From Pseudomonadota bacterium (GTDB lineage: Bacteria > Pseudomonadota > Gammaproteobacteria > Burkholderiales > JABEVD01): DNA of 64,000 nucleotides. The notes under the pieces were generated by a model. It did no database searches. It was not told the DNA's origin and saw only the letters and a program-made list of their open reading frames with translations. How positions within the stretch are numbered: position 1 is the stretch's first letter; the number at the start of each line of letters is the position of its first letter. Shown here piece by piece: positions 57,963 to 59,266 of the stretch. The translations under genes were made by a program, and so were the position numbers. The stretch spans positions 1 to 64,000 of the forward strand of contig JAJZRS010000014.1 in assembly GCA_021802545.1 (NCBI GenBank). Reading direction: 5' to 3'.

Positions 57963-58670
57963 ATGAAAAAAAATATGATTGATCCATGCCAGAACCATCT
58001 TTTGGCGAGGCTGCATGCGGACGAACGGGAGCGGCTCTTCTCGGAACTTGAGCAGGTGGACCTCAAGGACGGGGATATTCTTTCAGAGCCGAACAAGATA
58101 TCGCGTTACGTCTATTTTCCCGTAGCCAGTACGGTTTCACTCTACTACCCGATGGACCACGGGATCTCGTCGGAAATCGCTCTCATCGGCAACGAAGGCA
58201 TGTTCAGCATCGTGCCTGTCCTGGGCGGCGAGACGCTTCCCTATATGGCCATGGTTGAGACGCCGGGATTTGCCTATCGCATGGAATGGAAGGCGTTCAA
58301 GCGCGAGCTGGACCGGTCCAGGAACCTGAGGGAGGTCATTCTCCTGTATACCCAGGCGCTCTTTACCCAGATGGCGCAACTGTCGATATGCGGCAGGCAT
58401 CATTCGCTTCGCCAGCAGCTTTGCCTGCATTTGCTGCTGCTGCATGACAGGTCCTCTGCCGACAGGTTCGTTCTGACGCAGCAGACCATCGCCCATATGC
58501 TCGGCGTGCGCAGGGAAAGCGTGACCAAGGCTTCAGTCGAATTGCGCGAAAACGGGTTCATAGACTATCGCCGCGGATACCTCACGGTACTCAATCGCAG
58601 CGGTCTCGAAGGCCAGTGCTGCGAGTGCTACGGCGTGGTGAGAGAGGAGTTCTATCGGTTGCTGGGCTGA
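57963..58670 (+). CDS. Crp/Fnr family transcriptional regulator
   Basis: 235 aa; cyclic-nucleotide-binding-like fold and HTH LTQQTIAHMLGVRRESVTKASVEL. Confidence 0.9.
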   Translation: MKKNMIDPCQNHLLARLHADERERLFSELEQVDLKDGDILSEPNKISRYVYFPVASTVSLYYPMDHGISSEIALIGNEGMFSIVPVLGGETLPYMAMVETPGFAYRMEWKAFKRELDRSRNLREVILLYTQALFTQMAQLSICGRHHSLRQQLCLHLLLLHDRSSADRFVLTQQTIAHMLGVRRESVTKASVELRENGFIDYRRGYLTVLNRSGLEGQCCECYGVVREEFYRLLG

Positions 58671-58736
58671 GGTTTTGCACGCCAAATAACCATACTTCTA
58701 GTCGCGTTAATTTTCAAAGAAACGATGCAATAATGT

Positions 58737-58754
58737 CCGTGCCGTAAGGCACGG
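58737..58754 (+). other. 5'-UTR hairpin CCGTGCC-GTAA-GGCACGG (GNRA tetraloop)
   Basis: 7-bp perfect stem 31 nt upstream of small ORF start. Confidence 0.7.
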
Positions 58755-58785
58755 AGCATAAATTAACACGATAAGGAGATACAAT

Positions 58786-58890
58786 ATGGCTGATGCAATC
58801 CACTTCACGAATATGGGCGGTGTATTCGTTTTGCTCGCTTTTGCTGCTGTTTATCTGGGAAGCTGCTTCGCTCACCAGAAAGGCAAGTGA
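58786..58890 (+). CDS. 34-aa single-TM small protein
   Basis: Read directly: MADAIHFTNMGGVFVLLAFAAVYLGSCFAHQKGK; AAGGAG Shine-Dalgarno upstream; terminator downstream; not in ORF track. Confidence 0.7.
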   Translation: MADAIHFTNMGGVFVLLAFAAVYLGSCFAHQKGK

Positions 58891-58895
58891 GCTGC

Positions 58896-58911
58896 GCCGG
58901 TCTTGACCGGC
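58896..58911 (+). other. hairpin GCCGGT-CTTG-ACCGGC just after small ORF stop
   Basis: 6-bp perfect stem. Confidence 0.65.
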
Positions 58912-58920
58912 AGAGCATGA

Positions 58921-58942
58921 CGGGCCGCAAGGCCCGTTTTCA
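58921..58942 (+). terminator. intrinsic terminator CGGGCC-GCAA-GGCCCG-TTTTC
   Basis: 6-bp GC stem with GCAA loop followed by T-rich tract. Confidence 0.8.
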
Positions 58943-59266
58943 TTTTGAAAGTATCTTCGGGGTGGTCCAAACTCCGCGCGCCCCTGGCGATCTTTCCGGG
59001 CGAACGCGTATCATGCCGCCGTCCACTTCGGCAACCGTCAGGGTGGCCGCCGCCGGCAGAGGCGTGCACAGGCCGCCTCCTTCGAGAAGCATCCCTTTGT
59101 AATCCTTTTCGTCCTTCGCCGTCTCGTATTCCGTGATTTTTTCGAGCATTTCTTTCGTCGGGCAGGTGACGACGGATGGATTGGGGGAAAATACCGTTCC
59201 GACTTTGGGGCCGCCGGCCGAACAGGCAGCAAGGGCTAGCAGCAGAAGAAGCGATGCGGTTCTCAT
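58940..59266 (-). CDS. hypothetical lipoprotein
   Basis: 108 aa; MRTASLLLLLALAACSAGG lipobox. Confidence 0.7.
   Translation of the reverse strand: MRTASLLLLLALAACSAGGPKVGTVFSPNPSVVTCPTKEMLEKITEYETAKDEKDYKGMLLEGGGLCTPLPAAATLTVAEVDGGMIRVRPERSPGARGVWTTPKILSK

Follow-up and report, generated by a model that had tools for sequence, protein, structure and literature searches.

A conserved 34-codon gene for a predicted single-helix membrane protein in a Burkholderiales genus of acid mine drainage

The window, which is the whole 64,000-nucleotide stretch of contig JAJZRS010000014.1 that was analysed, has a G+C content of 57.4% and contains, on its forward strand, a gene of 34 codons for a protein with a single predicted membrane helix (MADAIHFTNMGGVFVLLAFAAVYLGSCFAHQKGK, 58786–58890). 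This gene was characterised by ORF search, alignment, dN/dS, hydropathy and structure prediction, and was compared among nine genomes of the window's genus (individual genomes are given G numbers below). Five features on the same strand precede the ORF: an upstream promoter motif (TAACCAT-N12-GTTAAT, 58687–58711), an extended −10 element (TGC-AATAAT, 58726–58734), a leader hairpin with a GUAA loop (58736–58755), a near-invariant leader element (TGCCGNAAGGCACGGAGCA, 58740–58758) and a ribosome-binding site (AAGGAG, 58773–58778). Between the stop codon and the terminator, folding reveals a further hairpin (GCCGGUC-UU-GACCGGC, 58896–58911), and the unit closes with an intrinsic terminator that has a GCAA loop and a TTCATTTT tail (58919–58946; stem, 58919–58938). 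An earlier sequence-only reading of the locus had picked out the ORF, the ribosome-binding site, both hairpins and the terminator. All five were recovered, and the leader hairpin, originally placed at 58737–58754, is extended by one U–A pair to 8 bp.

The start codon, stop codon and 34-codon length of the ORF are kept in 9/9 genomes of the genus with one copy in each, and the window's own genome holds a single match. At the protein level, the other eight copies are 62–79% identical to that of the window, and the nine DNA sequences encode eight distinct proteins, those of G002 and G004 being identical. Variable sites are most frequent at third codon positions (25, versus 18 and 12 at the others). 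Pairwise dN/dS values among the nine copies are mostly 0.1–0.35, with the value for any single pair being rough, as dS is near or above 1 and the ORF is short. Because the start, stop and length are kept in all nine genomes and dN/dS is mostly in this range, 58786–58890 is, judged by comparison of the genus copies, a real protein-coding gene under purifying selection. The conserved reading frame in homologues and the codon conservation that were expected when the ORF was first proposed are both present. Residues M1, D3, F7, T8, N9, G12, L16, A20, Y23, L24, G25, S26, Q31 and K32 are invariant in the nine copies. As a separate observation, codons 25–26 (58858–58863) read GGA AGC in 9/9 genomes, while the codon for the conserved Gly at position 12 varies freely; this fixity possibly reflects a constraint at the RNA level.

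In agreement with the proposal of a single transmembrane segment, the protein contains a hydrophobic stretch of 19 residues with a mean Kyte–Doolittle value of about 2.0–2.35. Structure prediction from the single sequence gives one confident helix for residues 2–32 (mean pLDDT of 88.6), which is a common result for hydrophobic peptides. With 34 amino acids (below about 60), one membrane-spanning stretch and a coding sequence under selection, the product is predicted to fall among the small single-pass membrane proteins. The charge flanking the hydrophobic stretch is −1 on the N side and 0 to +2 on the C side; a negative charge before the stretch and a mostly positive one after it suggest an N-out, C-in arrangement, in which the QKGK tail probably lies inside. 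One Cys and one His near the end of the helix had been offered as a functional clue, which the alignment takes away: Cys27 is Ser in 4/9 genomes and His30 is Tyr in 4/9, so a metal or haem site at these positions is unlikely.

The extended −10 element, as TGN-[CA]ATAAT, and the ribosome-binding site, as AGGAG, are found in 9/9 genomes. The −35 is poor beside this conserved extended −10, and the −35 position is occupied by the GTTAAT of the upstream motif. This motif, which varies in G001 (TATCCAT), G006 (TACCCAT) and G004 (GTTATT), is a possible activator or UP site; a second site of the full promoter pattern was not found in the window's genome at up to three mismatches. Fur-like GATAAT repeats, present in some promoters of the genus, were set aside, as they are absent from the window's copy. 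Based on the −10, we infer a transcription start near 58740, and in each genome the conserved −10 puts the corresponding start near the base of a GCC-GNAA-GGC hairpin, with which the mRNA therefore probably begins. Throughout the genus, the order of the unit is upstream motif, extended −10, leader, AGGAG, ORF and terminator-like stem. The conserved promoter, leader and terminator-like stems support the short, separate mRNA with a 5′ hairpin and a terminator that had been proposed, and a stand-alone single-gene mRNA of about 170–210 nt is very likely.

The surroundings of the unit are less constant. A gene for a Crp/Fnr-family regulator lies upstream in the window, outside the conserved unit (57963–58670, forward strand; PF13545 above cut-off and PF00027 just below), as the sequence-only reading had remarked. 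A functional meaning of this adjacency is not supported, as it is found only in G000, G001, G005 and G006 (4/9 genomes). In G003, G007 and G008, the orthologue sits on a different contig; a more distant relative is all that G002 has, and none was detected in G004. One different neighbour is common to G003 and G008 and another to G002 and G004, and no neighbour common to all nine loci was found, so the genomic context names no partner for the protein. Because the flanking genes differ between subgroups and the unit stays intact, selection acts on the unit itself.

The three hairpins of this unit had been described as stable. The 226-nt region does fold better than expected by chance (z = −3.6, with none of 200 shuffles as low), and the leader alone folds at z = −5.0; however, not all of this structure belongs to the genus. 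For the leader hairpin, the GCC-GNAA-GGC core is kept across the genus, whereas the long 8-bp stem is peculiar to the window's species; outside it, the core has 3–4 bp and the lower pairs are mostly broken. A hairpin similar to that at 58896–58911 is seen in G001, G005 and G006 and is not general in the genus. In 9/9 genomes, the ORF is directly followed by a terminator-like stem whose tail contains T; the sequence of this stem differs between genomes, and the tails in G007 and G008 are weak. The leader element GCCGNAAGGCACGGAGCA is near-invariant in the nine genomes (G007 has one extra A), and its unpaired portion, ACGGAGCA, is conserved to the same degree as the stem. No covariation was found in the leader stem in the alignment of genus copies, no Rfam family scored above its cut-off (the best, CRISPR-DR33, reached 23 bits versus the 39 needed), and no second copy of the element occurs in the window's genome at up to two mismatches.

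A profile of the protein family gives E-values down to 1e-24 for the genus copies and, in an order sample of 399 genomes, convincing matches in the window's genus alone. The same profile returned no convincing match in a class sample of 369 genomes, and the window's own gene and nothing further in a phylum sample of 399. Weak matches outside the genus (E of 0.002–0.05) were rejected: the five inspected are chance-like, in other frames or in longer proteins, and the remainder, including two in the class sample, were dismissed on score and frame length alone. The 34-residue protein was not found in the plasmids and phages searched; it has no match in the PDB and no meaningful match in Pfam, NCBIfam or PHROGs. 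A search with the leader pattern yielded 112 stretches, of which seven are from the genus (L038, L045, L065, L075, L083, L108 and L113), namely SKS and DS bins (‘Proteobacteria bacterium’) and ‘Burkholderiales bacterium MAG 21’. No corresponding ORF was seen in the stretches from elsewhere, which mostly lie in coding sequence, where L-P-K-G-T-E-H recurs, or are chance matches. When 390 order genomes from outside the genus were searched with a sequence-structure model of the −10, leader and ORF start, no match was convincing; the best of them (E of 0.014) was a ribosome site and ATGGCTGA before an unrelated longer ORF. The gene is therefore core to the genus and so far found nowhere else in the samples examined, which, being samples, may miss a relative in an unsampled family and would let strongly diverged 34-residue homologues escape. 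On this comparison, it is an apparently undescribed small gene that encodes a predicted lineage-specific membrane protein, with unusually clear comparative support.

The host genus is an acid-mine-drainage lineage of the Burkholderiales. Its member MAG 21 was obtained at a site of this type, has no classification below the order and has a G+C content of 57% (PMC8357290). Its gene content reportedly includes form II RuBisCO, nitrogenase, dsrAB/aprA, and bo and bd oxidases (PMC8357290).

The explanation we favour, which we regard as evenly poised between right and wrong, is that the gene specifies a single-pass membrane protein that docks on and tunes a larger complex and is translated from an mRNA protected by a 5′-terminal hairpin. 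This mRNA, of ~170–210 nt, would begin with the GCC-GNAA-GGC hairpin or immediately ahead of it; the hairpin would shield the 5′ end from RppH and RNase E and make the mRNA long-lived. The protein would insert as one helix, and the invariant residues D3, F7-T8-N9, G12, L16, A20, Y23-L24-G25-S26 and Q31-K32 would provide the docking face for a larger membrane protein complex, the activity or stability of which would then be tuned. In E. coli, 5′-terminal hairpins stabilise mRNA by hindering RppH and RNase E (PMC3997798). Like the ompA and papA mRNAs (PMC3997798), the mRNA considered here would present a 5′-terminal hairpin before a short leader; in contrast to them, its core has 3–4 bp in most species and invariant sequence continues beyond it. 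Since the core is this short in most species and no covariation is seen, the protective effect of the hairpin may be modest. With respect to the protein, MgtS of E. coli provides an example of a stand-alone small single-helix regulator of a large membrane protein. AcrZ is likewise a single-helix tuner of a large membrane protein and is not necessarily encoded beside its partner (PMC7267776). No similarity in sequence between either of these and the 34-residue protein was detected by Pfam or NCBIfam. Many characterised small membrane proteins act on a larger complex, as do CydX (PMC4325964) and AcrZ (PMC7267776), and it is by analogy with these two that the 34-residue protein is proposed to bind and tune one.

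The fixity of ACGGAGCA is not explained by simple end-protection, which makes a second role for the leader a serious rival. Here, the leader would be a regulatory RNA: an RNA-binding protein, such as CsrA/RsmA, or a small RNA would recognise GCCGNAAGGCACGGAGCA, and translation of the small protein would be controlled in this way. This tentative reading draws on the 18 bases that are almost invariant in stem and single strand alike, while most of the other 5′ UTR differs between genomes both in its sequence and in its length, and on candidate CsrA/RsmA ANGGA sites: ACGGA in 9/9 genomes, plus AAGGA at the ribosome site in some species. However, the GGA lies outside the hairpin loop, the ribosome site of G002 and G004 is TAGGA rather than ANGGA, and the lack of covariation, of an Rfam family above cut-off and of a second genomic copy also speaks against it. 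More doubtful is the joint proposition that the leader represents a novel regulatory RNA of this genus, responding to a protein, small RNA or ligand and serving the one core small membrane protein alone, and that this protein is an energy-metabolism subunit or regulator of acid-mine bacteria.

A type I toxin–antitoxin system, in which an antisense RNA would silence a small hydrophobic toxin whose mRNA is stable and structured, is improbable. The type I toxins TisB and LdrD are short hydrophobic peptides with structured mRNAs, and the present unit similarly combines a short hydrophobic peptide and a structured 5′ end with its own promoter and terminator. It differs in being core to the genus, in single copy in every genome, and in showing no positionally conserved antisense promoter-like site over the ORF in a consensus scan; purifying selection with specific invariant residues and absence from the searched phages and plasmids likewise argue against a toxin.

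The probability is slighter again that the protein is an accessory subunit of cytochrome bd oxidase of the type of CydX, a bd oxidase subunit of about 37 aa (PMC4325964). The two resemble each other as small membrane proteins of similar size and topology with a single helix, and bd oxidase is present in 7/9 genomes of the genus. In contrast, CydX is encoded with cydAB, whereas the 34-residue gene stands alone with the cyd operon elsewhere in the genome; its product matches no CydX-type family model in Pfam or NCBIfam and is missing the Trp and Glu of CydX. In addition, cydB of the bd operon is followed by a separate CydX-like ORF (MWYFSWILGVGLAMAFGIINVLWLEAEYFC) in the five genomes in which that stretch is readable, a 60-residue hydrophobic ORF precedes cydA in the window's genome, and G003, which is 96% complete, carries the 34-residue gene and has no CydA match. 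Because its operon already encodes CydX, bd oxidase is unlikely to be the partner complex. Strong full-length COX1 matches occur in some genus genomes only, and COX1 thus does not track a gene found in 9/9.

Some further features of these oxidase loci were observed. The bd operon of L155 (G000, contig C29) comprises a sulfide:quinone-oxidoreductase-like gene, the 60-residue hydrophobic ORF, cydA, cydB and the cydX-like ORF. A COX1-family match of some kind is found in 9/9 genomes. At L175 (1366–1971, reverse strand) and L170 (1378–1902, reverse strand), a short COX1-family protein of ~175–200 residues, covering family positions of about 305–411, is encoded beside an ABC transporter gene; these proteins are possibly truncated and haem-copper-oxidase-like.

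Finally, a mainly regulatory small RNA with an incidental ORF would suit the compact, structured and separately transcribed unit, but is highly improbable given that selection on the ORF is at the protein level and that the 3′ part lacks sequence conservation.

Genes of this size often escape notice; in this case the comparative evidence is firm, since nine genomes share the frame, promoter, leader and terminator in changing neighbourhoods. The general picture is unchanged, as lineage-restricted small membrane proteins are expected. The gene offers a defined target in the search for a membrane partner specific to this lineage of uncultured acid-mine bacteria.
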